From positions 1,612,001 through 1,676,000 of the forward strand of contig NZ_CP011270.1 of assembly GCF_001610835.1 (NCBI RefSeq): DNA of 64,000 nucleotides. Reading direction: 5' to 3'. Positions 6,643-57,153 of the stretch are shown piece by piece. The notes under the pieces were generated by a model, which saw only the letters and a list, made by a program, of their open reading frames with translations, ran no database searches and was not told the DNA's origin. The first letter of the stretch is position 1. Each line of letters opens with the position of its first letter. The DNA comes from Planctomyces sp. SH-PL14 (GTDB lineage: Bacteria > Planctomycetota > Planctomycetia > Planctomycetales > Planctomycetaceae). A program made the translations under genes and the position numbers.

Positions 6643-7667
6643 TACGACCTCGGGGCGGATTTGGGAGGAGGGGGAGAATCGTCCGCGATCCCGGTCGGGT
6701 CAAGCGGGGACTTATCGCCGTCGGTTGTGGGACGCAGCAAGCGATCGTCAGTCTGCAGAAAAAGGTGACGTGCGATCATGGTTGCCGTCACCGCTCCGAC
6801 GAGCCCAAACAGCAGGCCTGGCATCCAGTGACCGGGCAGAAACGGAGTCCCAAAAGTGCTGCCCAAGATCGGCGAGCCCAGGACCGCCCGCAGGATTTCC
6901 GACCGGTCCTCCGCGGTCCGGTAGTACCAGCCGGGCACGGCGAACCGCAGCAGGCATCCCAGCCCGAAGCCGGTCCCCGCACAGGCTGGAATCATCGCGG
7001 AGAGCCAGGGCAGAGGTCCGAGCCAACCGGCCAGCCCGATCGTGACAGCCCACGCGCCCCACCCGCCGATCAGAGCACCAGTGATCGCTCCGAGAATAGA
7101 AAGACCTACGTAGACGAAACCCGGAAGACCGTCGCGTCTCCAGACCCGGCGGCAGGCACTGTCCTGCAGGATTTGCCCCCAGCGGGCCAGGGTTTCGGGC
7201 TCCAGGCCGCAGGCGACCTGACGGCCGGTCGGAAGCACGATCATGAGACACCGTCGACGTTCCCCGGTGAACCAGTAACGGCGATCGTCGGACGTCCAGC
7301 CGTCGAACCAGCAGCACTGACGCAGGGAGTAGGACTGTCGGCTGGACTCCTCGCGGACCACGACGGCACCGTGAACGAAGGCCACGCTCCGTTCATGATC
7401 GAAACGGTCGAAGCCGACTCGGCTGATCCCCGCGGCGACCAGCACGGGGAGGGCCAGGATCCCCAGGAAGACGATCGCCTCGCTGGCGTTGAGTCCATGC
7501 CATGTCGCCACCGCACCCACGATCAGTGCTGAGACACCGGCGACCGCCACCAGGGCCCGGAGCGTCACGAACGGACGGTGCCCCGGGGACTCGCTCGGAG
7601 CGGCAATGGTCTCACGGAAGATGTCGGTCGCGTCGTTCATCGCGTCGTCGGCCGGCGAAATGGTCAC
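6642..7667 (-). CDS. Membrane protein coupled to fabI, unknown function
   Basis: 341 residues from a GTG at 7667; an ATG at 7640 (MNDATDIF) is equally possible, and neither has a clear Shine-Dalgarno. Segments at about 36-54 and 64-84 are hydrophobic, followed by a soluble region resembling a PH-like or DUF-type membrane-anchored domain ([36 protein letters not shown]). Further hydrophobic segments lie at about 180-202, 206-222, 232-245 and 287-305. The C-terminus is proline- and serine-rich. No family was recognised. The one-base overlap with fabI suggests joint expression, perhaps with membrane lipid supply. Confidence 0.65.
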
Positions 7668-13906: not shown

Positions 13907-15832
13907 TCATCTCTTCGTCACGAACTCGCTGCTGTTCAGCAGGCTCCAGAGGATGTCTTCGAAGGCTTCCGAGCGGTTGCCGATGGTGCGGATGAGGGCC
14001 AGGTTGAGCTCCGTCTCCTGCTTGGACGGCTCGCGGGCCAGAATGACGAGATAGAGCTCGATGAGAGCGTCCTCGTCGTTCGAGTAATCCTTGAGGATCT
14101 GCGCGAGCCGCGTGTTGCCGGTGCCGCCCATCATTCGCTGGATGGCGGGGTTGTTCATCATGAACAGGGCCTGCGGGACGGTCCCGAGGATGTCCTCCTG
14201 CGGCGTCGAGGGGTCAAAGCCGAACAGCACGGCAAAGCCCTGCCGCTGCGAGAGGGGAAGCCGCCCCATCGGCCCGCCCCGTCCGCCGGCGATCCCCAGG
14301 TTGGAGATGCCGAGGACCGAGGTCAGCTCGTTGTAAATCTGGTCGGACCGGAGCCGCGTCGGCGCGGCGGCCGCGAACGCTGGCCCGTTCAGCGACGTCC
14401 CTTCGCTCCCCGCCAGCTGCCGCTGGTAGGCATCGGTCAGGGCGATCGTCCGGTACAGCCACTTCACGTCGTAGTTCTGCGCGGTGAAGCCGCGGGCCAG
14501 GGCGTTCAGGACCTCGCCGTACTGCGCTTCGCGGAGCGGGCCCATGTCGTCGATCGGGGTGAAGAACCCTTCGCCCAGCATCTCCGCCCAGACGCGGTTG
14601 ACGAACGCCTTCGCGAACCAGGGATTGTCTTTCGCCGTGATGTGCTCGGCGAGGGCTTCGCGGCGGTCGAGGTCGTCCGTTCCCGCCTTGAGCTTCGACT
14701 TGTCGAGGAAGAACGCCGGCTCCATCAGCGTCCCCTTGGACTGCGGGTCGTTGAGGTCCGGCATGTAGTGCTCGGCCGAGCCGCGGCCGGGCTGGTTGGC
14801 GTCGGGCCGCGGAGCGTCCTTGAGTTCCTGCGGGGTGAGCTTGCCGTCCTTGTTCTTGTCGGCGAAGCCGAGGATCGTGTCGAACCGCGCGGCGAGCGGA
14901 CCGCTCGCTTCTTCCTTCACCAGGAAGCCGTCGCGGTTGCGATCCATGAAGCGGAAAATCTGCTCGGGGTCGTACTGCCGCCCCTGCGGCTGACGCTCGA
15001 GGAAATCCGCCGAGGTGACGACGAACGACCGCAGGGTCTGCGGGGACTCGCGGCGGACTTGGATCCGGGGGAAGTAGGCGGCCAGCGTGTGGAACTCCTC
15101 GCGAGTCCACTTGTCATATGGATGGTTGTGGCAATTGGCGCACTGGATCTGGATCCCGAGGAAGATCCGGGAGACTTCCGAGGCGATCTCGTTCGGGTCC
15201 CCTTCCTGGGCGAAGATCAGGCCGATCTCGCCGTCGGTCTCCGTGTTGCCGGTGGCGCAGATCATCTCCGTGGCGACCTTGTTCCAGGGGGTGTTCGCCT
15301 GGAACTGCTCCTTGAGCCAGCCTTCAAAGACATCCTGAACGAGCCGCACCCGCTGGTTCGTGGCCCGGGAGAAGACCACTTCCCGCCAGTAGCCGGCCCA
15401 GTTCTCCGCGAAGGCGTCCGAGCCGAGGAGTTTGTCGATCGTCTTCTCCCGCTTGTCGGGATCGGCGTTCAGGCAGAAGAGGGTGACTTCCTTGGCGGTC
15501 GGGACGGTCCCCGCCAGGTCGAGCGTGACGCGGCGGAGGAAATCCTCGTCGCTGGTCCGCGCGCCGGCCGTGACTGATTCCTTCGCCAGGTGGGCGGCGA
15601 TCAGACGGTCGACTTCTTTTGCGATCGTCTGCGACGAGTTGAGCTTTCCCTGCGTCCCCAGGACCGGCTTCGCAGTCCCCTTGGCGGTTGACTTGGCCGT
15701 CGCCGATTTGCCCGCATCCGATTTGGCGAGCGGCTTGTCGGCGGTGAGCGCCCCGGTCGTCAACAGCGCCGAGCCAACCAGAACGCAGCCACCGAGCAGC
15801 AGAATTCGGAGTGGTCGGCGGAGTGGTTTCAT
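13907..15832 (-). CDS. DUF1549/DUF1553 protein with two EF-hand loops
   Basis: 641 residues from the ATG at 15832. The open frame continues upstream but only antisense to the neighbouring Clp-N gene, so the short start with signal peptide (LRILLLGGCVLVGSALL) is preferred. After a Lys/Ala/Thr linker, DUF1549 covers about 75-290 and includes CANCHNHPYDKW, a CxxCH heme-type motif. Two canonical EF-hand loops follow: DRNRDGFLVKEE and DKNKDGKLTPQE. DUF1553 fills the rest (FVNRVWAEMLGEGFFTPIDDMGP, RSDQIYNELTSVLG, ending LLNSSEFVTKR). Such proteins are abundant in planctomycetes and thought to be periplasmic; c-type heme attachment is not proven. It is first gene of the unit with the DUF1501 gene. 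Confidence 0.9.
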   Translation of the reverse strand: MKPLRRPLRILLLGGCVLVGSALLTTGALTADKPLAKSDAGKSATAKSTAKGTAKPVLGTQGKLNSSQTIAKEVDRLIAAHLAKESVTAGARTSDEDFLRRVTLDLAGTVPTAKEVTLFCLNADPDKREKTIDKLLGSDAFAENWAGYWREVVFSRATNQRVRLVQDVFEGWLKEQFQANTPWNKVATEMICATGNTETDGEIGLIFAQEGDPNEIASEVSRIFLGIQIQCANCHNHPYDKWTREEFHTLAAYFPRIQVRRESPQTLRSFVVTSADFLERQPQGRQYDPEQIFRFMDRNRDGFLVKEEASGPLAARFDTILGFADKNKDGKLTPQELKDAPRPDANQPGRGSAEHYMPDLNDPQSKGTLMEPAFFLDKSKLKAGTDDLDRREALAEHITAKDNPWFAKAFVNRVWAEMLGEGFFTPIDDMGPLREAQYGEVLNALARGFTAQNYDVKWLYRTIALTDAYQRQLAGSEGTSLNGPAFAAAAPTRLRSDQIYNELTSVLGISNLGIAGGRGGPMGRLPLSQRQGFAVLFGFDPSTPQEDILGTVPQALFMMNNPAIQRMMGGTGNTRLAQILKDYSNDEDALIELYLVILAREPSKQETELNLALIRTIGNRSEAFEDILWSLLNSSEFVTKR

Positions 15833-16090
15833 GGGGCGAATCCAGGGAAAGGCCGCGAGCGATTGGGTGTGACATCCAGTCCGACAGGAACTGAAACACC
15901 GATGAAGGGCGTTCGGTTTCGCCGGATTCCCATCCGGGAAATCCGGATTTCGTTGTGTGAAGCAGGAGCGAAGGCCGTAGTCTGGCTCGATCTGAAAGGG
16001 TGAGCGGCCGAATTCTGGAATCGCGGCGGGCAGGAGACGGGTGTTCACCAATGGTGAGCCCCATTTCCCCGGTTCCAGACTGAGCCTCCC
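15833..16090. other. Divergent intergenic region between DUF1549 and Clp-N genes
   Basis: No gene. A small inverted repeat TCACCA-A-TGGTGA lies at 16045-16057, 34 bases before the Clp-N protein start, and could be an operator. No convincing -35/-10 pair was found. Confidence 0.35.
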
Positions 16091-17599
16091 ATGTACGAAC
16101 GCTTCACAGACCGCTCCCGAAAGGTGATGCAGCTGGCCAACGAGGAAGCGCAGCGGTTCCAGCATGAGTACATCGGCACCGAACACATTCTCCTGGGTCT
16201 CCTGAAGGAAGGTTCGGGGGTCGCTGCGAACGTTCTCAGGAACCTGGGTGTTGATCGCGACCGGATTCGCATCGAGGTCGAAACGATCTTGCGGTCGGAA
16301 CGAGACCGCGTAGACAAGGGCGATCTGCCTCGGCCGCCGTGGGCCAAGAAGGTGATCGAGTACGCGATGGAGGAGGGCCGACACCTCAATCACAACTACG
16401 TCGGGACCGAACACCTCCTGCTGGGGCTGCTCCGCGAACCGGAAGGAGTCGCCGCCCGCGTCCTCATGAACCTTGGCCTCAAGCTGGGAGACGTTCGAGA
16501 GGAAGTCCTCAACCTGCTCGGCCACGGGATCGCGCGGGTCGAAGCCCGGGCACCGAAACCCGCGGAATTGCCTTCCGAAATGACCGCACGGGTGCGGCGG
16601 GTTCTCGAGGTCGCTCAGGAGGAGGCGGAGCGTCTCAACGTCGGATTCGTCGGGACGGAGCATCTCCTTCTCGGCCTGGTGCGAGACCAGGCGTGTGTGG
16701 CCGTTCAGATCCTGAGACTGGCGGGGGGAACTCAGGACCTGATCCGTGCGGAAGTCGAGAGAGTCGTCGGCGCGGATCCGACAAAGGGATCCCCGCCCCT
16801 CAAGGGAGCCGTTCCGTATTCCGAGGCGTTCAACCGTGTCCTCACGCTGGCGGAGCAGGAGGCCCGCGATGGCGAACATCTGGGGACCGAACATCTTCTG
16901 TTTGCCCTCCTGTCCGTGCCGGAGGGGCAGGCGGCTCCTGTCCTGGGGCGATTCGGTATCACTATCGGCAAGGCGCGGGAGGCCTATCGGCGGTGGCTCA
17001 GCCGCGGCATCTCACCGAGCCGAAGGCTCTTTCCGCGAGAGTCGGACACGGCCTTCGAAGATCGAGTAGCGGACGGGACGGAAGTTCTTTCGCCCGCGCA
17101 CAGCCGGAGGGCCGCGCGGGTGATGAGGTACGCCAACCAGGAATCTCAGCGGTTCAACCACGAATACGTCGACACGGAACACCTCCTTCTTGGACTTGTG
17201 CAGGAAGGGAAGAGTGTCGCGGTGAACGTTCTAAAGAATCTCGGCATCGACCCGCGGAAGATCCGCCTGGAAGTGGAGAAGAGGATGCAGTCGGGCCCTG
17301 ACATCCTGGCCATCGGCCGGCTGCCGCAGACACCCCGGACGAAGTGGGTGAGGGAGTATGCCACCGAGGAGGCCCGGCTTGCCGGTCATCCGGTCATCGG
17401 GACGGAGCATCTGCTGCTCGGCCTCCTGAGCGTGAGCGAGGGGAAGGCGGCCGAAATTCTCGGCGGTCTGGGTGTGACGATCGATGCGGTCCGCGCGGGA
17501 ATTCGGGACGTGCTGCCGGATCCGCGGATCGCGGAGGATCAGTTCCTGGGAGACGCCCCCCTCGGCGATGAGCCGCAAGACGACTTCCCAGCCTCATGA
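16091..17599 (+). CDS. Clp N-domain concatemer (six Clp_N half-repeats, no ATPase)
   Basis: 502 residues made only of ClpA/ClpC-type N-terminal repeats. The core (I/V)GTEHxLLGL occurs six times: GTEH at 29-32, 105-108, 188-191 and 265-268, DTEH at 361-364, and GTEH at 437-440. This makes three double Clp_N domains. There is no Walker A or B motif, no UVR segment and no other domain; the tail is acidic (GDEPQDDF). By hand alignment, residues 1-147 match the first 147 residues of ClpC (18351-20912) at 119 positions (81%). Residues 341-475 also resemble ClpC, including SGPDILAIGRLPQTPR. The middle pair is more diverged. Clp_N domains recruit adaptors and substrates, so an adaptor, decoy or regulator of ClpC is a reasonable inference. 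A duplicated clpC 5' end is the likely origin. Confidence 0.88.
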   Translation: MYERFTDRSRKVMQLANEEAQRFQHEYIGTEHILLGLLKEGSGVAANVLRNLGVDRDRIRIEVETILRSERDRVDKGDLPRPPWAKKVIEYAMEEGRHLNHNYVGTEHLLLGLLREPEGVAARVLMNLGLKLGDVREEVLNLLGHGIARVEARAPKPAELPSEMTARVRRVLEVAQEEAERLNVGFVGTEHLLLGLVRDQACVAVQILRLAGGTQDLIRAEVERVVGADPTKGSPPLKGAVPYSEAFNRVLTLAEQEARDGEHLGTEHLLFALLSVPEGQAAPVLGRFGITIGKAREAYRRWLSRGISPSRRLFPRESDTAFEDRVADGTEVLSPAHSRRAARVMRYANQESQRFNHEYVDTEHLLLGLVQEGKSVAVNVLKNLGIDPRKIRLEVEKRMQSGPDILAIGRLPQTPRTKWVREYATEEARLAGHPVIGTEHLLLGLLSVSEGKAAEILGGLGVTIDAVRAGIRDVLPDPRIAEDQFLGDAPLGDEPQDDFPAS

Positions 17600-26774: not shown

Positions 26775-27356
26775 GTGGCCTTTACAGACGTCGACCGCCG
26801 TTTATTGAAGCAGTGCATCAGTCGGGCTCCCGGAGGCTGGGAGGCCTTCATCGACCGCTTCCTGGGCCTGTTTCTCCATGTCATCAAGCACACGGCGAGC
26901 GCCCGCAGCGTGGCGCTGACGTCTGACGACGTCGACGATCTCTGTTCCGAGATCATGCTGATGCTGCTCCAGAACGACTTCGCCGTCCTGCGGCATTTCC
27001 GCGGGAAAGCGTCGCTCTCGACCTATCTTGTCGTCATCGCCCGCCGAGTCGTCGTCCGGGAGCTGATCCAGCGGAAGCAGGCCGAGGCGCTCGGGCACGT
27101 CGCCGCGCACAACAACGCGATGGACGCCGCCGGGAACATTTCCGAAGTCCAGCGGATCGAGAACTCCGACGAAGTGAAGCTGCTGATGGGGGTCCTGGGT
27201 CCCAGCGACTCCGAGATCATCCGGAAGTACCACCTCGAAGGCCGCAGCTACCGGCAGATCAGCGAGGAGCTGGGGATCGCCGAGAACTCGATCGGCCCGA
27301 CCCTCAAGCGAGCCCGCGACCGCCTCCGCGAGATCAACGTCCGCAGCCGGGTTTGA
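26775..27356 (+). CDS. ECF-type RNA polymerase sigma factor
   Basis: 193 residues from a GTG. Region 2 is at about 25-95: DDVDDLCSEIMLMLLQNDFAVLRHFRGKASLSTYLVVIARRVVVREL, the DDLxQE-like motif and the helix that recognises -10 DNA. Region 4 is at about 135-190: LGPSDSEIIRKYHLEGRSYRQISEELGIAENSIGPTLKRARDRL, a HTH. No anti-sigma factor lies beside it and it is not coupled to its neighbours, so its control is not visible. It lies between the pump permease and lgt. Confidence 0.88.
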   Translation: MAFTDVDRRLLKQCISRAPGGWEAFIDRFLGLFLHVIKHTASARSVALTSDDVDDLCSEIMLMLLQNDFAVLRHFRGKASLSTYLVVIARRVVVRELIQRKQAEALGHVAAHNNAMDAAGNISEVQRIENSDEVKLLMGVLGPSDSEIIRKYHLEGRSYRQISEELGIAENSIGPTLKRARDRLREINVRSRV

Positions 27357-29817: not shown

Positions 29818-31902
29818 TCAGTGATTGACGGCGAACTCGCTCGAATTGAGATACGCCCACAACACGTCGCTCAGCCCCTCATTCAACGCGACTTCCACCG
29901 GCTGCCGCCCCTCCTTGCGATACTTCCGCACCAGCTCGACCAGCCGCGACAGCTCCCGCGGCGTCGGCTGACGGGAGAGCGCCGTCTGACAGAGACGCCG
30001 GATCTTCTCCGCCTCGCCCCCCGGCTCGTTCAGGACTTCGTAAAGCGACGTCCCCGGCTGACCGCTGACCGCCTGCCGGATCAGGTCGCCGTTCATCATC
30101 ATCAGCGTCTGGGCAAACGACCCGTCGAACGTGCTGACCTCGGCATTCTCGTCGTTGTCGACCGCCGCATAGAACTGATCCAGCCACGCCTGCCGCCGCG
30201 TCTCCACCTCGTTCCACGACACGCTGCGGTGCGCGTTCGTCGCCACCAGCAGCGAATCGAACATCTGCTCCGCCGACAGCGGCTTCACATACATCCGGCT
30301 GAAGAGAGGCGTGACCCCCTCCGACGGCTCGTCCGCCTGGTTGTCCGTACCGAACTCGCTCGTCAGCTGATACGCCGAGGAAGTGCAGATCCAGCGGATG
30401 AGCTGCTGGACGTCATACCCGCTCGCCACGAAGGCGGCGGTCAATTCATCGAGAAGCTCCGGGTGCGAAACCGGCGTATGCGGTCCCATGTCATCGACCG
30501 GCGTCGTGAAGCCGCGGCCGAAGAAGTGATTCCACATCCGGTTCACCATCGCCCGGGCGAGCTGCGGGCGGTCGCCGTCCGCGAGGAGCCGGGCGAGTTC
30601 CTGCCGGCGGTTCACCCCGGCACGGGAATCGACCTCGTGGCTCTCCAGCTTCGGATAGGCGACCCGGACCACCCCGCGCAGGTCTTCGTAAAACGTCGGA
30701 CCACTGCCGCTGGGGTCGTTGACGAGCGCCCGGACTTTCTGCCGCTGGCCGGTCTGCGGATTGACCTCGTCCCGCTCGGCGACCGAAGTCTGCTGGAAGA
30801 AACTGTTGAAGCCCCAGAACTCGTCCTGCGACGCGCCGGTCGTGGGATGCTTGTGGCACTGCATGCAGTGCATCTGCGTGCACAGGAACAGCCGCGACGT
30901 GATCGCCGTGGCGGGGACCGCCTCATTGTTGAGATGGGCCAGAAGGAACGCGCTCGCGCCGTTCTCCTGCTCCGTCCCCTCGGCGGTGAGCAGCTGCCCC
31001 ACCGTCTCCGACCACGGACGGTTCTCATGGAACTGACGGCGGAGGAACCGGGCCAGCGAAACCCGGTCAACCGGCTTGTTCGACGACCGCCCCACCAGCA
31101 GGTTCGTCCACTGGGTGGCGAAGTGCCGGGCGAAGTCGCTCCCGGCGAGCAATTCGTTCACCAGCCGCTCCCGGCGATCCTCGCGGCGATCGGCCAGGAA
31201 GGCGTCGACCGCGGCGACGTCGGGAATGTGACCGGCGATATCGAGATAGACCCGCCGAACCCATTCGGCGTCGTCCGCCCGCTTCGACGGGGTGACCCCG
31301 GAGAGCGTCCAGCCGGCGTTCAGGTGCGTATCGATCAGCCCCACCACCGAAACGACATCGGTCCGGACGGCCGGCGTCGCGGGAGGCGAAACGGTCTCCG
31401 GCGCCGAAGGCGGATTCGAAGTCGTTGCCGGCGTGTTGGCCCCCGCGATGTGAATCGGCGGGATCATCGGCACCGAGGGAATGACCTTCGCCGTGCCGGA
31501 CGAACCATCGCCGGCCGGATCGGGCGTGCCGGGGCCGTTCGTCTTGGGATTCGGCGTGTCGACGGCGACCGGGGCGGGCCCCAGAACGCCTGCCGGACGC
31601 ACGAGCAGGACGGCCAGCAGAACAGCCGCCGCCGAAGCGACCGTAGCACCGGCCCGGACGAGCCGCGAACGGCGCCAGCCGGTGGTCTGGGCTACGGCCG
31701 GGACCGGTTCGGGGGACGCGACGCCGAGAGCGGCGTCCCAGGCCAGATTGCCGTGCAGGCAGAGATAGTCGAAATAGAGCGACTGGGCGTCGCGATCCGC
31801 GAGCACGAGCTCCTCGATCTGCGCAATCTGCTCCGGGGTCGCCTGGTCGTCGACCAGGAGATCCAGCAGCTGCAGCAGGCGATGGCGGGTGTCGTGGGTC
31901 AC
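29818..31902 (-). CDS. FecR/anti-sigma-like N-terminus fused to DUF1549-DUF1553
   Basis: 694 residues from a GTG that overlaps the sigma-factor stop (GTGA). Residues 1-55 follow the planctomycete anti-sigma/FecR pattern (LLQLLDLLVDDQATPEQIAQ, LADRDAQSLYFDYLCLHGNL). A single transmembrane segment lies at about 82-104 and a Pro/Thr-rich linker at 105-170. DUF1549 follows (about 180-400) with CMQCHKHP, a CxxCH motif. DUF1553 (about 425-694) has MVNRMWNHFFGRGFTTPVDDMGP and ends LNSSEFAVNH. The cytoplasmic part can be expected to bind the co-encoded ECF sigma factor, while the cytochrome-like part lies outside the membrane. That would make it a sensor-type anti-sigma factor; the link is inference. 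Confidence 0.88.
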   Translation of the reverse strand: MTHDTRHRLLQLLDLLVDDQATPEQIAQIEELVLADRDAQSLYFDYLCLHGNLAWDAALGVASPEPVPAVAQTTGWRRSRLVRAGATVASAAAVLLAVLLVRPAGVLGPAPVAVDTPNPKTNGPGTPDPAGDGSSGTAKVIPSVPMIPPIHIAGANTPATTSNPPSAPETVSPPATPAVRTDVVSVVGLIDTHLNAGWTLSGVTPSKRADDAEWVRRVYLDIAGHIPDVAAVDAFLADRREDRRERLVNELLAGSDFARHFATQWTNLLVGRSSNKPVDRVSLARFLRRQFHENRPWSETVGQLLTAEGTEQENGASAFLLAHLNNEAVPATAITSRLFLCTQMHCMQCHKHPTTGASQDEFWGFNSFFQQTSVAERDEVNPQTGQRQKVRALVNDPSGSGPTFYEDLRGVVRVAYPKLESHEVDSRAGVNRRQELARLLADGDRPQLARAMVNRMWNHFFGRGFTTPVDDMGPHTPVSHPELLDELTAAFVASGYDVQQLIRWICTSSAYQLTSEFGTDNQADEPSEGVTPLFSRMYVKPLSAEQMFDSLLVATNAHRSVSWNEVETRRQAWLDQFYAAVDNDENAEVSTFDGSFAQTLMMMNGDLIRQAVSGQPGTSLYEVLNEPGGEAEKIRRLCQTALSRQPTPRELSRLVELVRKYRKEGRQPVEVALNEGLSDVLWAYLNSSEFAVNH

Positions 31903-32459
31903 GGGGAATTCTCAGCCGCCAGTCGGCGGCGCATGCACTCCAGTAATGTTCGTCGGATCCGGCCGACCGACTGGTACACCGAATTGGCCGGCCGCTCTAA
32001 CTCATCGGCCAGATCCTTGCCGTGAGTCCCGGGCTGATACCGCTGGCGGATCAGCTCCCGGTCCTCCGGCTTGAGCCGGGCCATGCAGGCCTCCAGGGCC
32101 AGCCGCTTCCGTTCCCATTCGTCCGAAAGCCCCTCCGACTCCGTGGCGATCTTGTCCATGAAGTCTTCGGAGAACCGGAGCCGGTCCCGGTGGCGGGACT
32201 GGCGAAACTGCAGGACTTCGAACCGGGCCACCTGGCAGGCCCAGGCGAAAAAACTCGTCCCGAGCTGAAACTGGCTCGCCTTGGTCAGCAGCACGACGTT
32301 CGTGTTCTGCAGGACCTCTTCCGCCTCCTGCGTGCTCCCCAGTTGCGAGAGGAGAAACAGGTAGAGCGGACGCTGGAACTTCGTGAACAGCTGAATGAAC
32401 TGCTCACTCGGCGCGGCGGGCGCAGAGCCAGAATCGGCGACGGGTTTCGGTGGTTCCAC
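31899..32459 (-). CDS. ECF sigma factor, Rhodopirellula/Verrucomicrobium family type
   Basis: About 186 residues from the GTG at 32459. The start is uncertain: the frame stays open to a GTG at 32621, and a TTG at 32471 is another option, but the upstream extension is Pro/Ser/Arg-rich and unlike the family. Region 2: FTKFQRPLYLFLLSQLGSTQEAEEVLQNTNVVLL, TSFFAWACQVARFEVLQFRQ. Region 4: MARLKPEDRELIRQRY and GKDLADELERPANSVYQSVGRIRRTLLECM. These match the sigma factors typically found next to FecR-like genes in planctomycetes. It is translationally coupled to the FecR-DUF1549 fusion gene downstream. Confidence 0.88.
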   Translation of the reverse strand: MEPPKPVADSGSAPAAPSEQFIQLFTKFQRPLYLFLLSQLGSTQEAEEVLQNTNVVLLTKASQFQLGTSFFAWACQVARFEVLQFRQSRHRDRLRFSEDFMDKIATESEGLSDEWERKRLALEACMARLKPEDRELIRQRYQPGTHGKDLADELERPANSVYQSVGRIRRTLLECMRRRLAAENSP

Positions 32460-32704
32460 GCGCGTCGTCAAACTCGAAACTCGGACGGTTCTTCGCGAAG
32501 GCGATGGCCGGAATCGGCAGGGACCGGAGACGGTCCGGACGGGGCGAACGAAGGCAGGAGAAACGGCCGGTGGAAGCGAACACGGGGAGCCTGATGGCTC
32601 CCCGCTTCGAATGTCCACCACCGCGAATCACGGGATGCCGCAGAATTCGCGGTCGGACGACCTCCTCCCCTTCAGCGACTCTCGCTTCAGGGAGATCGGT
32701 CGGC

Positions 32705-33982
32705 CTAGGAGATGAGTCCCTTGATCGGCGTACCGCCGTTGGCGAGCCGCATCGGACGGCCGCGGCCGGAGGTGTGGACCGTGTCGAGCGGAATCTTCAT
32801 GGCGTGAGCGATCGTCGCCCAGATGTCGCCGGGGAGGTAGCTCTCGCTGACGATCCGCATCCCGTCGGCATCGGTCTCACCGATGGCGCGGCCACCCTTG
32901 AGTCCGCCCCCGCCGATCATCACGGACCAGCTCTGGGCCCAGTGATCGCGGCCGGTGTTGGCATTGATCCGCGGCGTACGGCCGAACTCGCCCATACAGA
33001 CGATCGTCGTGTGTTCGAGCAGACCGCGCTGCTTGAGGTCGGCCGTCAGGCCGGCAATCCCCTTGTCGAGGATCGGGAGCCGCTGGTTCTTGAGGGTGTT
33101 GAACACGTCCTGATGGAGGTCCCAGCCGCCGGGGAAGTTGACTTCCACGAACGGGACGCCGACTTCGACAAGGCGGCGGGCCATCAGCATGCTGCGGCCG
33201 AAGGCGGAGGTCGCCGGACCGTACATGTCGCGGACGGCAGCCGGCTCCTTCTCGGTCTTGAAGGCGTCCATCTGGGCGGAGGTCATCAGGTTGACCGCCT
33301 TGGAGTAGACGTCCTTGTGAGCCTGGCCGATGTCGCCGCGGTCGGACTTGATGAACGTGTCTTCGACCGCTTCGAGGATGCCGAGCCGCTTGCTGAGCCG
33401 GCCCATCGAGGCCTGGTCCATTTCGGCGTTCTGGATCCGGCCGTTGGAGTCGACCACGAACGGAGCGTGCGACATGCCGAGGAAGCCGGGGCTCATTCCG
33501 CCCCCGCCGATCGACACGAACGCCGGGATTTCGAGTTCCTTCCGCTGCTTCGCACCGACTTCGTAGCTGACGACCGAGCCGAAGGTCGGGTGAACGACGG
33601 TCGGGTTCGGCACGTAGGCGGTGTGCATGAAGTAAGAGCCGCGGCCGTGGTCGGCTTCGCGGGTGCTCATCGAGCGGACGACCGACAGGTCGCTCATGAC
33701 CTTCGCGGTTTCCGGCATGTGCTCGGAAATCTGGAGGTCCCCCTTCGTCGAGACCGGGGTGAACTCACCGCCGTTCTTCGAGCCCGGCTTGAGGTCCCAG
33801 ATGTCGATCGTCGGCGGTCCACCGCCCAGCCAAATCAGGATGCAGGCCTTCTGGGCCTTCTTGACTTCGGCGGCGTTCGCCTGGAGGTGATTCAGGAAGC
33901 TACCGGCCCCCAACGTCACGGCCCCGCCCATGGCCAGGTGACTCATGAAGTGCCGACGGTTCATGCCATTGGGAAGGAGCAT
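32705..33982 (-). CDS. DUF1501 protein, Tat-like signal
   Basis: 425 residues from the ATG at 33982; the longer open frame to 34138 lacks a signal at its start and is rejected. [19 protein letters not shown] gives a twin-arginine-like signal. Family blocks: [75 protein letters not shown] and [14 protein letters not shown]. It is a paralogue of the protein at 12513 but has [22 protein letters not shown] rather than the YQLHTGYVP form. It lies 309 bases downstream of a DUF1549/1553 gene on the same strand, the usual pairing. Confidence 0.9.
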
Positions 33983-34291
33983 TGGAAAATCCCCGGTTCT
34001 CTGGAGAGTGACTGTTTGAAGACGAATACAGCGAAAGGCTGATTCTGGGAGACTGACTTCTGTCGACCGACGACCGCACGTGTCCAACTCAATTTCACCA
34101 TCGCATGGGTCAGACGTCCACGCGAATCGCCTTGTCAAAACCGCCCGGCGGAAGCTTTCGCTTGCCGCCGGGGCCGTGTTTCACACTCACCCGGCTCGTG
34201 ACTTCTGGACCGCTGAGCTTCGCCTGCCGCCAAAAATGACAGCCGTCGAGTCTCAAACCACGCCCCGGCACGAAATTACCGGCAAACCACC
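33983..34291. other. Gap between paired DUF1549 and DUF1501 genes
   Basis: 309 bases with no gene. Its main feature is the hairpin listed next. The length and the hairpin suggest that the DUF1501 gene may have its own promoter near 34000-34130, but no clear hexamers were found. Confidence 0.4.
34144..34172 (-). terminator. Bulged GC hairpin followed by TTTT (terminator or attenuator)
   Basis: CCCGGCGGAAGC (34144-34155) pairs with GCTT-G-CCGCCGGG (34160-34172) with one bulged base and a four-base loop. On the minus strand it is followed by CGGTTTTG. Placed 120 bases after the DUF1549 stop and 160 before the DUF1501 start, it may end or attenuate the message. Confidence 0.5.
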
Positions 34292-35953
34292 TCAGTGGTT
34301 CGTCACAAATTCGTTGGAATTCAGAAGTGCCCAGTAGACGTCCTGGAGCCACTCCATCCGGTAATTCCCGTAGGCGGCCATCGTCTTCCGCAGGGCCGTC
34401 ACTTCGGACTTGCCCGGCGTCCGCCCGAGGGCGGCGATGTACATCGACCGAATGATCTCGTTCTCGTTCTTCGGGTTCGACTTCATCGTCGCGGCGATGA
34501 AGCTCCCGTCCTCCGTGCTGATCGCGCTCTTCACGAGCGGGCCGTTCATCATCAGGAGGGCCTGGGGAATCGTGCCGCTGAACAGCGTCGGCTCGGTGTC
34601 TTCCGCTCCGCCGAAGATCCGCTTGAACTCGGTCAGCCAGCGATCCCGCTGAGCCTGGGCCGCCTCGTAGCTCCCCTGGCCCGCCCCGTGGGCGTTCGTG
34701 GCGATGATCAGGGAGTCGTAGAGCTGCTCAACCTGCAGCGGCTTGACGTACATGTGGCTGAAGAGCGGCACTTCCCCGCCGGCCGGGTCATCCACGCCAT
34801 TCTTGGGATTGAACTGGCTCGTCAGGTTGTACGCTTCCGTGTTGCAGATCCACTCGCAGAGCTTCTTGACGTCGTAGCCGCTCTTCACGAATTCTTCAGT
34901 CAGCTTCTCCAGCAGCTCCGGATGGCTGGCCGGGTTGTGTGGTCCCATGTCGTCGACCGGCTTGGTGAAGCCGAAGCCGAAGAAGTGGCCCCACATCCGG
35001 TTCACCATCGCCTTGGCGACCTGCTTCGTGGAGTCGTTCTTGGTCATCATGGAGGCGAGCTCCTTGCGGCGCTCCGAGCTCCCCGGGTCGATTTCCTTGT
35101 CCATGTACTTCGGGTAGGCGACCTGGACGAGCCCCGCCCGGTTCTCGAAGTACACCGGGCCGGTGTAGTTCCGGAACACCAGCTCCGAGTAATCGTCATC
35201 CATCTGGCCGGTCTTCGGGTTGTACTTGTCGTGGTCGACCCGGCGGACCTGGCGGAGGAAGCTGTTGAACTCCCAGAACTGGTTCTGCTTCCACTCGTTG
35301 AACGGGTGGTTGTGGCACTGCGTGCACTGGACCTGCATTCCCAGGAAAATCCGCGTCAGCCGGGCGGTCGCCTCGACCGCGTACTCTTCGTTGTTCGGAT
35401 TGCCGGTGAGCTGGGCGAGGATGAAGTTGACCGCGCCGTTCTCGGTGAAGTGCCCTTCCGCCGAGACCAGGTCGAAGACCATCTCGTTCCAGGGCCGGTT
35501 CTTGGCGAACCCTTCCCGCAGGAACTTCTCGAGGGCCGCCCGGTCGGTCCGGTCCGGCGTGTTCCGCCCGAGGAGGACGTTCGACCAGACGGTCGTCATG
35601 TTCCGGACATAGCCGGGGTCGGCCAGCAGTTCGGCGATCAGCTTCGACCGCTTGGCTTCATCCTTGTCCCGAACGAACGCCTCAACCTTGCTGGCCGGGG
35701 GAATGTGGCCCAGCACGTCGAGATAGACCCGGCGGAGCCATTCCATGTCGTCCGCGACGTCGCTCGGCTTGACTTCGTTGTCGGTCCAGCCGGTCCGGAT
35801 CTGCTCGTTGATGGCGGCAATCAGGGGATCCGAAGACCCCGTGGTGAACTTCGATTCCGCTGCGCCGGCCTGCGTCCCCGCACCCTGCACGGCCGCAAAC
35901 GCCAGACTGGCCACCGCGACACACCCGATCAGCGATCGACGCATCCGCAGCAT
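34292..35953 (-). CDS. DUF1549/DUF1553 protein
   Basis: 553 residues from the ATG at 35953, chosen over a GTG at 35980 because GGAAGGGG lies at good spacing and it starts a signal peptide (RRSLIGCVAVASLAFAA). DUF1549, about 40-260: LIAAINEQIRTGWTDNEVKP, WLRRVYLDVLGHIPPASKVE, FLREGFAKNRPWNEMVFDLV and VQCTQCHNHPFNEWKQNQFW with the CxxCH motif. DUF1553, about 300-553: KAMVNRMWGHFFGFGFTKPVDDMGP, FSHMYVKPLQVEQLYDSLI and ending LLNSNEFVTNH. It is close in sequence to the DUF1553 part of the FecR fusion (29818-31902). Likely periplasmic; heme binding is not proven. Confidence 0.92.
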   Translation of the reverse strand: MLRMRRSLIGCVAVASLAFAAVQGAGTQAGAAESKFTTGSSDPLIAAINEQIRTGWTDNEVKPSDVADDMEWLRRVYLDVLGHIPPASKVEAFVRDKDEAKRSKLIAELLADPGYVRNMTTVWSNVLLGRNTPDRTDRAALEKFLREGFAKNRPWNEMVFDLVSAEGHFTENGAVNFILAQLTGNPNNEEYAVEATARLTRIFLGMQVQCTQCHNHPFNEWKQNQFWEFNSFLRQVRRVDHDKYNPKTGQMDDDYSELVFRNYTGPVYFENRAGLVQVAYPKYMDKEIDPGSSERRKELASMMTKNDSTKQVAKAMVNRMWGHFFGFGFTKPVDDMGPHNPASHPELLEKLTEEFVKSGYDVKKLCEWICNTEAYNLTSQFNPKNGVDDPAGGEVPLFSHMYVKPLQVEQLYDSLIIATNAHGAGQGSYEAAQAQRDRWLTEFKRIFGGAEDTEPTLFSGTIPQALLMMNGPLVKSAISTEDGSFIAATMKSNPKNENEIIRSMYIAALGRTPGKSEVTALRKTMAAYGNYRMEWLQDVYWALLNSNEFVTNH

Positions 35954-36414
35954 TTCGCTACCCCTTCCGACTCTGGTCACGCGACTGGATCCAACAGACT
36001 ACCGCATCTACCCGACACGTCTCCCCTGCCGTGTTCCACCCGCCGTCAACACAGCTCGGGAGGAGAAGGGGGACTACGCTGCCGCATTTCATTACCGCAC
36101 ACCTGCGGTCGATGTTCGGAAGAATTCTTCGGAACATCGGAACGGCCCACCCCGCGGCAATCGCCACAACAGTATAGACAGCGGGATTTTCAGTCGCAAA
36201 TCGGAATCAACATTGACTGATCGGTCTGTAGAACAGGGGGCCCGCCGGCCCCCGATCCCGGACCATTGATTCTTTCGGAACCATCGGCCCGGATTGAGGT
36301 TCCAGCTCGGCAAACCGCACATCCTCGACACCACCGGGCCGGTCTGCCATGCTGCCGACCGGCTAGTGCCCCGTCTCCCTCCCGCTCCCGCTTGAACACC
36401 CGGCTGACCAGGAC
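35954..36414. other. Divergent intergenic region, DUF1549 gene and glycosyltransferase gene
   Basis: 461 bases without a gene. It contains the near-perfect 28-bp palindrome listed next. A TATAGA hexamer at 36173-36178 is a possible rightward -10 but has no good -35. Confidence 0.4.
36111..36138. promoter_or_regulatory. Near-perfect 28-bp palindrome, candidate operator
   Basis: Arms GATGTTC-G-GAAGAA (36111-36124) and TTCTTC-G-GAACATC (36125-36138) are complementary at 13 of 14 positions; only the G at 36118 and G at 36131 do not pair. The word TTCGGAA occurs in both halves. It lies about 160 bases upstream of the DUF1549 start and 275 upstream of the glycosyltransferase start, so it could serve either gene. 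Confidence 0.5.
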
Positions 36415-55512: not shown

Positions 55513-57018
55513 TCAGGGCGTGTCCGCGAATTCAAGAATCGTCAGGACCGGGCGATGGTCCGAGGCGACCGGCTCGGCAATGACCCGCGTTTCGACGACG
55601 CGGCAGGCGGCGGCCGGCCGATAGCCGACGAAGTCGATCTGCTGCTTCGGCTGATCCGAGGGGATCGACGGAATCTCGCGGTCGCCGCAGAGCGTCCACC
55701 GCGACGAGACGGCGGCGAGCGTCTCGCTCCCGCGATCGTCGTTGAGGTCCCCGGCGAGGATCGCGAATGCATTTCCAGCCTTCGCCGCGCGGTCATTGAT
55801 GACCTGCATGGAGGCCCGGCGCTCAGCGTCGTCGCGGCGATGGTCCAGATGTGTGGCGAAGGCCTTGACCGGGGCCGCGAGCATCGGAACCGCAATCTCC
55901 GCCATCAGGACGCCGCGCTGCTCCCCTTTCGCGACCACGGGCAGTAGCACGTTCTCGGAACGTGAGATCGGATACCGGCTCAAAAGGGCGTTTCCGTATG
56001 CGCCCCCCTGGAGGGAGAGATTCCCACCGAATGCAACGTGGAACCCGAGCGCCTTGCCGAGGACCGCCGGCTGATCGACGCGGCCGCTTCGGGTCACGTT
56101 CCGATCCACCTCTTGGAGGCAGACGATGTCCGCCGCGCTGACCCGGATCACCTCCGCGATCCGGTCGAGGTCGAGCTTCCCGTCCGTCCCTTCGCCGTGG
56201 TGGATGTTGTAGGTCAGCACCCGCAGCCGCCGGGCCGCGAGACGCTCGGACTCCGCCACGAGCACTCGCTTTCGGCCGCGGTCGATCCCGACGAGGCCAC
56301 CCGTCACAGGATCGGCGGCAATCCCCTGGCCGGTGAACGCGATCGGAACCTCTTCGACAAACTCGAGAACGGTCCCCGTCGCAGGGAGCCGCAGCCGGAA
56401 CGCCATCCGGTCGTCATGGCCGGTCACGAGCAAGGTGTCGTCCGTCCAAATCCCGCCCGAGAGGCTGAACTTCCCGAGCCGCCCGAACAGCTCCGGCGGA
56501 TAGGTGAACCGCGCGAGTTCCTTCCAGTCGGCATCAAACCGGACCAGAAACGTCTCGACGTTGTGTTCGCCAAACTTCGCGAAGTTGCACCACCACTCGT
56601 CCGGCGCCCGCTTCGGCTGATGAATCGCCCACGTCAGGCTGCCGCCGTAGTTCCCGAAGTCATGGAACGTCGTCAGCTCGCCCGTGGCCGGGTCGAACCG
56701 CTTGATCTGGCTCGACTCCGGCGTCTTCGGATAGTTCGAGTGGGCGGCGTACAGGACTCCGTCCCAGACGAAGCCGCTGTTGAGGTGTTTTGCGTCACCG
56801 CGGCTTTCACTCACCCGTGCGTCCGTCGCACGGTCGAACACCACCACCCGGTCGTTGGTAATGGCGTAGAGGTAGCGCTCGTCCGCCGCGGCCGCCTGGT
56901 TCGCCTCCGGCGCGGGAAGCTGACGGACGGATTTCCAGGTCTCGCCGCGGGCGGCCTCCCCTCCGGCCAGGAAAAGCACGGCCGCCACGAGAGCTCGGGA
57001 GAGCGGAGCGATCGACAT
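55513..57018 (-). CDS. Exo/endonuclease/phosphatase (EEP) domain fused to a beta-propeller-like N-terminus
   Basis: 501 residues from the ATG at 57018; a GTG at 57033 would add five residues. A signal peptide ends near residue 23 (AVLFLAGGEAARG). The N-terminal half (about 25-260) looks like a propeller of short beta blades: YLYAITNDRVVVFDRAT, SQIKRFDPATGELTTFHDFG, TWAIHQPKRAPDEWWCNFAK and LSGGIWTDDTLLVTGHDD. The C-terminal half is an EEP domain: RVLTYNIHHGEGTDGKLDLD, VCLQEVDRN, FATHLDHRRDD, AILAGDLNDDRGS and VASDHRPVLTI. These supply the Asn, Glu, Asp and His of the catalytic site. Secreted nuclease or phosphodiesterase; substrate unknown. It lies between the ABC genes and the adaptor gene, in opposite orientation. 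Confidence 0.88.
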   Translation of the reverse strand: MSIAPLSRALVAAVLFLAGGEAARGETWKSVRQLPAPEANQAAAADERYLYAITNDRVVVFDRATDARVSESRGDAKHLNSGFVWDGVLYAAHSNYPKTPESSQIKRFDPATGELTTFHDFGNYGGSLTWAIHQPKRAPDEWWCNFAKFGEHNVETFLVRFDADWKELARFTYPPELFGRLGKFSLSGGIWTDDTLLVTGHDDRMAFRLRLPATGTVLEFVEEVPIAFTGQGIAADPVTGGLVGIDRGRKRVLVAESERLAARRLRVLTYNIHHGEGTDGKLDLDRIAEVIRVSAADIVCLQEVDRNVTRSGRVDQPAVLGKALGFHVAFGGNLSLQGGAYGNALLSRYPISRSENVLLPVVAKGEQRGVLMAEIAVPMLAAPVKAFATHLDHRRDDAERRASMQVINDRAAKAGNAFAILAGDLNDDRGSETLAAVSSRWTLCGDREIPSIPSDQPKQQIDFVGYRPAAACRVVETRVIAEPVASDHRPVLTILEFADTP

Positions 57019-57153
57019 CGGGATGGATTCCACAGACCGAAAAAGAGCGGAAAGACGATCCGCCGAAACGAGTTATGCCGAGGTTTCCCCGCGACGCAAT
57101 CGAGTACGTGGGAATTCACTCGTTCCGCGTAGGCCGCGATGCGGAACGCCGCC

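Follow-up and report, generated by a model that had tools for sequence, protein, structure and literature searches.

A predicted self-regulating ECF sigma factor switch in Planctomyces sp. SH-PL14 with a PSCyt2-PSD1 body fused to an anti-sigma-like head

The locus described here lies on the minus strand of a 64,000-nucleotide window of contig NZ_CP011270.1 from Planctomyces sp. SH-PL14, and all coordinates below are positions in this window. Four genes follow one another in the direction of transcription. The first (34292..35980) encodes SHORT, a secreted PSCyt2-PSD1 protein that was recognized from its ORF and Pfam matches and that trees identify as a paralogue of the body of the fusion protein. 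It is followed by a gene for a DUF1501 protein (32705..34138; ORF and Pfam), which carries a twin-arginine signal after an ATG at 33982-33980, then by an ECF sigma factor gene (31899..32621; 240 aa) and finally by the fusion gene (29818..31902; 694 aa, GTG start), whose product joins a short head, a transmembrane segment, a linker and a PSCyt2-PSD1 body. A motif scan located a predicted ECF-like promoter, P1, with the sequence CCGAAC-N17-GGTAAT upstream of SHORT (36091..36119), and a second copy of the motif, P2, between SHORT and the DUF1501 gene (34275..34303), both on the minus strand. The overlap of the sigma stop and the fusion start in a shared GTGA, claimed in the original prediction, was confirmed on the minus strand at 31902-31899, where the fusion GTG occupies 31902-31900 and the sigma TGA 31901-31899. 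Of 65 orthologous pairs, 41 can have the same four-base overlap when start codons are picked by nearness to the sigma stop.

The sigma factor scores 148.7 bits against the TIGR02989 cut-off of 124.55 and thus belongs to this family. Its start may equally be the GTG at 32459 given previously or that of the longer ORF, in which the TIGR02989 domain begins at residue 73 (about 32405). The window also contains a second ECF sigma gene (26775-27356, plus strand), which scores below the TIGR02989 cut-off and lies upstream of an lgt-like gene, as well as a further PSCyt2-PSD1 protein of 995 aa (13907-16894, minus strand) with EF-hand matches between its two domains. An Rfam scan of the window gave no match.

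A domain and locus search of relatives, which had been suggested as a check, established that the fusion is retained well beyond this genome. Among 36 relatives of the same family, the sigma gene is followed by a fusion in 29 of the stretches read; in the remainder, the sigma gene sits at a contig end (G017), the search gave a fragment of the body (G020), or SHORT and DUF1501 occur without a sigma gene in the stretch read (G008, G016, G018, G023 and G032). Addition of 77 loci from named records and removal of repeats left 70 sigma loci, of which two are paralogues from the SH-PL14 genome and 68 are orthologues, with near-identical strains possibly still included in these counts. A fusion gene lies next to the sigma gene at 65 of the 68 orthologue loci, and the other three stop at a contig edge. 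The 26 other sequences of an alignment (A1) share the architecture, at 34-50% identity; this alignment leaves out L039 (internal stop), the type-2 fusion L069 (see below) and both L049 and L058, which run into contig ends. Together, the recurring architecture and the 65/68 loci indicate that the fusion did not arise by chance. In L039, a locus from a metagenome-assembled genome and of the same record type as L110, an in-frame TAG (6957-6959 of that locus) occurs just past the transmembrane segment, and may reflect a pseudogene, an assembly error or readthrough.

Gene order is likewise well kept. The order SHORT-DUF1501-sigma-fusion was found in 50 of the 65 loci, DUF1501-sigma-fusion in 10 and sigma-fusion in five, so that DUF1501 lies upstream of the sigma-fusion pair in 60 cases. 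Four of the five sigma-fusion loci begin less than 460 nt from the end of the stretch, and the fifth (L115) has 1.8 kb without DUF1501. The association with DUF1501 extends to 12 further DUF1549 loci of the SH-PL14 genome (L168-L179): a DUF1501 match was present in 11 of 12 stretches, on the opposite strand in L176, and none was detected in the stretch read for L178.

AlphaFold modeling of the whole fusion from 27 sequences (mean pLDDT 81.7) gave a confident three-helix head (residues 3-59), a helix (89-98) within the hydrophobic segment and a mostly confident body from residue 186, with low confidence at 62-88 and 99-183. The head (residues 1-59; 31726..31902) is followed by a single hydrophobic segment at about residues 85-101 (31600..31650), which is preceded by Arg and followed by a linker modeled with low confidence as far as about residue 183. 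This Pro/Thr-rich linker, assigned from the sequence to about residues 102-185 (31348..31599), mostly has pLDDT values below 50. Positive charge is greater before than after the transmembrane segment in 58 of the 65 fusions, and the hydropathy peak exceeds 1.6 in 61. Charge bias and hydropathy together make it most likely that the head faces the cytoplasm and the body lies outside, which bears out the previously claimed topology of one transmembrane segment with an inner N-terminus and a Pro/Thr-rich linker.

The body (residues 186-694; 29821..31347), defined by Pfam and the model, matches PSCyt2/DUF1549 with 133.3 bits and PSD1/DUF1553 with 141 bits, both far over the cut-off, and bears a CMQCH motif at residues 346-350 (30853..30867; sequence and alignments); it is therefore complete, CxxCH included, as the original prediction had stated. 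A weak DUF1800 match covers residues 429-690 (E 0.0006, below cut-off). A Foldseek search with the whole fusion model returned no match at E values up to 0.001 and only weak rows resembling phycobilisome linkers, mostly at about residues 543-694, while a sequence search of solved structures with the body found none at E values up to 0.1. As the body was modeled as part of the whole fusion, no claim of a new fold is made.

In trees, the bodies of the fusions group as the sister clade of the SHORT proteins, and the fusion clade received a support of 98 (SH-aLRT) in a 53-row tree but only 0.6 in a 167-row FastTree, from which seven of 174 body proteins were left out as too short. Other planctomycete groups contain a second type of fusion, here termed type-2, with the same kind of body and a different head (near DPILDxLLxExLGGxxPPDL), and this lies directly behind a different ECF sigma factor in all seven loci read. 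One such locus (L161) has the order SHORT-DUF1501-sigma2-fusion2, in another (L069) DUF1501 lies behind the fusion, and a neighboring DUF1501 is absent in four of the seven. A single origin of all fusions was rejected: a tree in which they are constrained to a single clade is worse by 96 log-likelihood units (p-AU 4.3e-6), in a test that used a quick tree with 22 constrained rows, omitted L070 as a near copy and drew its groups after the first tree had been seen. The position of L147 in the tree is unsure. These sequence-based trees indicate that a second, unrelated pair of sigma factor and head acquired such a body on its own. That different anti-sigma-type heads were joined to it on two separate occasions argues for a signal borne by the body itself. 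The type-2 fusions L070, L072 and L159 lie near a long ORF with an ADWCVYCHQM stretch, which we take to be thioredoxin-like.

What this signal might be can be approached through the residues that are kept. The CxxCH motif is present in 59/59 fusions, 51/51 SHORT proteins, 7/7 type-2 fusions and 10/10 secreted relatives of the latter, and 35 columns are fixed across all four body groups. The last residue, a His (694 in the fusion, 562 in SHORT), is at least 95% conserved in all four groups and is a possible ligand. An anti-sigma factor whose body works as a redox or heme sensor, an idea of the original prediction, with heme on CxxCH and its oxidation state or a heme ligand setting sigma activity, would be consistent with the motif in every type-1 and type-2 fusion, with the terminal His and with the outer location of the body, where c-type heme is attached. 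However, the presence of CxxCH in every secreted relative compared makes it a feature of the family and not of the sensor, and heme in these proteins is indicated by this motif by itself. Likewise, His323 was rejected as a fusion-specific heme ligand: it is His in 56/59 fusions and Gln in 50/51 SHORT proteins, but of 50 further proteins in the alignment, 19 also have His. A body that senses redox or heme in this form is improbable.

Conservation also differs between the two sister clades. Columns at least 95% conserved number 134 in SHORT versus 74 in the fusions, and the stretch HPFNxWKQxQFW after CxxCH, nearly fixed in SHORT, is loose in the fusions. This looseness would suit a body that is a remnant, in which an anti-sigma factor carries a copy that has lost catalysis and would bind a small ligand but not touch DUF1501; a precedent is the GH10 module of RsgI6, which binds sugar (PMC4711584). 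However, the 35 columns fixed in all four groups show that the core was kept, and DUF1501 still adjoins the sigma-fusion pair in the 10 of 65 operons in which SHORT is missing; we regard a remnant as a shade less probable than a redox or heme sensor. In the reading preferred here, in which the fusion is an anti-sigma factor that senses its own pathway through a copy of SHORT, the conserved CxxCH and fixed columns, together with the loose stretch that follows, suggest a sensor that keeps a cofactor-like core while its surroundings drift.

This reading depends on the nature of the head, for which the genomic context is informative. A search of the SH-PL14 genome with the head of this fusion alone (E up to 1) gave seven other matches, four of which, including the best three, lie just downstream of TIGR02989 sigma factors above the cut-off; match 3780351 (E 0.05), which ranks ahead of the fourth sigma-linked one, lies inside an unrelated large ORF. 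A profile (A2) was built from 23 heads, five of them sigma-linked heads of this genome. With it, a head was detected behind seven of the eight above-cut-off TIGR02989 sigma factors of SH-PL14; of the weaker matches, the eighth (E 0.018) follows a lower-scoring sigma factor and the ninth (E 0.068) has no sigma factor in front of it. When six other complete genomes of the family were searched with A2, each of the 19 matches with E values up to 0.001 was located 41-157 nt downstream of an above-cut-off TIGR02989 sigma factor; they account for 19 of 26 such sigma factors, the other seven being without one. Three of these matches (the fusions of G004, G007 and G013) are themselves rows of A2, and 14 are non-fusion heads outside it. 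Of the six sigma-linked partner proteins in SH-PL14, five have a FecR match (four over the cut-off), two of these also have LamG, and one matched no domain. The contrast that had been drawn with FecR and LamG outer parts is supported, in that proteins of this genome with the same head family do carry FecR or FecR-LamG.

Profile searches speak less clearly. No anti-sigma family was matched when the 23 heads were scanned singly against Pfam at E values up to 10, no anti-sigma chain was matched in a profile search of solved structures with the head, and an NCBIfam scan of the whole fusion returned no match. The FecR domain PF04773 was not matched in the fusion at E values up to 1. The AF2 model of the 59-residue head alone, in turn, comprises helices 2-16, 22-34 and 36-58 in a three-helix bundle, as in class I anti-sigma domains (ASDI). 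In a structural comparison, RsiW ranked first (5wuq_D; Z 6.5, rmsd 2.1, 55 aligned), MucA second (8z6g_E; Z 6.3, rmsd 2.7, 54 aligned) and another MucA entry third (Z 5.7), with the next row at 4.8, and RsiW or MucA made up six of the first 11 chains found by Foldseek (E 1.7-4.3); such values (Z 5.7-6.5, E 1.7-4.3) are not significant alone, since helical bundles can reach such Z scores by chance. They gain value because the genomic context points the same way. In class I anti-sigma domains, a flexible linker leads to a fourth helix (PMC7406223). None is predicted before the transmembrane segment of the fusion, where residues 62-88 have pLDDT values below 50; a fourth helix may form only upon contact with the sigma factor.

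The head is encoded beside its presumed cognate ECF sigma factor, as is the rule for ASDI (65/68 loci with three cut, and 19/19 for the head family). As it matches no known anti-sigma model in sequence, it is termed anti-sigma-like here and not a member of ASDI. Of the anti-sigma/FecR-like N-terminus in the original prediction, the anti-sigma type is upheld by the sigma-linked head family and the resemblance to RsiW and MucA. The proposed comparison of the N-terminus with anti-sigma profiles had a divided outcome, being negative for Pfam and positive for a TIGR02989-linked family with a class I-like fold. In sum, the fusion very probably has an anti-sigma function. That the head only anchors the protein in the membrane or aids the sigma factor as a positive co-factor, and that the fusion is a tethered second enzyme-like copy, would agree with the unmatched Pfam models, the unseen fourth helix and the weak structural scores, but is highly improbable given that head matches with E values up to 0.001 in the six genomes occur only behind TIGR02989 sigma factors, that the head carries FecR-type outer parts behind other sigma factors of SH-PL14 and that its nearest structures are anti-sigma domains.

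An ECF-like promoter common to these operons, which the original prediction had not mentioned, emerged from the regions upstream of SHORT. The block pair CGAA-N18-GGT occurs in 27 of 53 regions, versus at most 12 for any block pair in three shuffles, and expectation-maximisation yielded the model aCGAAC-N17/18-(G/T)GTAAt. At 10 bits or more, the motif was found in 43 of 51 SHORT-headed operons versus 32 of 1020 resampled sequences (first-order Markov), a count made mainly on the operons used for training. In DUF1501-headed operons, which lie outside the training set, it occurs at 12 bits or more in four of six versus two of 120 shuffles. Lone SHORT genes lack it at 10 bits (0/7), as do outgroup SHORT genes with the same model (0/17), and SHORT-DUF1501 pairs in which no sigma gene was seen have it in two of 10 (L116 and L134). 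Six of these ten, L116 included, were read for more than 1 kb behind DUF1501 without a sigma gene, and L134 ends inside DUF1501. These controls indicate that the motif mostly accompanies sigma-fusion operons. L116 itself combines SHORT-DUF1501 and a strong motif with no sigma gene within 2.9 kb downstream.

Several extensions of this result were abandoned. A genome-wide regulon could not be drawn from the strict pattern, which has seven matches versus four for a reversed control; of the seven, just the pair in this operon is regarded as meaningful. P2 is not a generally conserved promoter; few other operons have one, and its -35 half overlaps the Thr-Asn codons that end SHORT. Motif counts upstream of the sigma gene were discarded because conserved coding sequence makes up most of that stretch. 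A strong copy at 56834-56862 (plus strand), upstream of an ORF at 57023, sits within an Exo_endo_phos gene of the other strand and may be due to chance. On this motif evidence, the operon is probably autoregulated from a predicted aCGAAC-N17/18-GGTAAt promoter.

From the computed architecture, topology, conservation, paralogy, promoter motif and sigma-linked head, we infer sigma binding, inhibition, a signal and the release of the sigma factor in the following form. The fusion would be a single-pass membrane anti-sigma factor whose cytoplasmic three-helix head keeps the ECF sigma factor inactive. Its outer body, a copy of SHORT that retains the CxxCH core, would act as the sensor and most likely read a partner or substrate that it shares with SHORT. 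The best candidate for this partner is the co-encoded, Tat-exported DUF1501 protein, because DUF1501 lies beside the sigma-fusion pair in the ten operons without SHORT in front and accompanies 11 of 12 further DUF1549 loci of this genome. The signal would free the sigma factor, perhaps by intramembrane proteolysis; the freed sigma factor would then transcribe SHORT-DUF1501-sigma-fusion from the aCGAAC-N17/18-GGTAAt promoter, and newly made fusion protein would close the loop. As a whole explanation, a self-regulating ECF switch in which an anti-sigma fusion senses its own pathway through a PSCyt2-PSD1 copy is favored with moderate confidence. The SHORT paralogue and the DUF1501 protein in the operon, neither of which had been considered previously, change the likely signal: sensing of the DUF1501/substrate branch is tentatively suggested, and sensing of redox or heme state appears unlikely.

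The closest known design is that of SigI6/RsgI6 from Clostridium thermocellum, where most rsgI genes overlap sigI and SigI6 recognizes the sigI6 promoter (PMC4711584). Common to both systems are a cytoplasmic head of the anti-sigma type, a transmembrane segment and an outer binding or enzyme-like domain. The GH10 module of RsgI6 shares 57% identity with Xyn10D, and SigI6 recognizes the predicted promoter of the latter (PMC4711584). In RsgI6, too, the sensor is a duplicate of an enzyme under the control of the system. In contrast, RsgI heads comprise about 165 residues (PMC4711584) versus about 60 in the fusion, and the RsgI outer module binds sugars whereas that of the fusion is PSCyt2-PSD1. 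Nearer at hand, the FecR-type partners of TIGR02989 sigma factors in SH-PL14 likewise lie directly behind the sigma gene and share the short helical head family; unlike these FecR or FecR-LamG proteins, the fusion has no FecR domain and has PSCyt2-PSD1 as its outer part.

A link between sigma factors and PSCyt2-PSD1 proteins is already published. In Rhodopirellula baltica, the ECF sigma factor RB10049, which is up under heat, cold and salt, was proposed to regulate RB10051 (PSC2+PSD1); the parts of that report seen here mention no anti-sigma head (PMC2754498). DUF1800-DUF1501 gene pairs likewise couple a DUF1501 protein that bears a Tat motif with another protein, and sigma or anti-sigma factors go unmentioned in the portion consulted (PMC5122149). 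The titles and abstract openings searched described no fusion of an anti-sigma head to PSCyt2-PSD1, which does not establish its absence from print, and the operon with a paralogue, the promoter motif and the second fusion origin were likewise not found in this partial coverage.

PSCyt2 (DUF1549) has 63 matches in the SH-PL14 genome, 62 of them over the cut-off, and nothing is known of the functions of such genes according to the part of PMC5615132 consulted. A more speculative proposal is that homeostatic switches arose at least twice from unrelated sigma/anti-sigma pairs, with a tethered copy of the regulated PSCyt2-PSD1 protein as a sensor; this copy and the regulated protein would compete for DUF1501 as partner or for a shared substrate. 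If this is true, the cell would measure the working state of an abundant, uncharacterised PSCyt2-PSD1 pathway. Given a dedicated sigma factor and a predicted promoter, whatever turns P1 on would tell what the pathway handles, which is directly testable.
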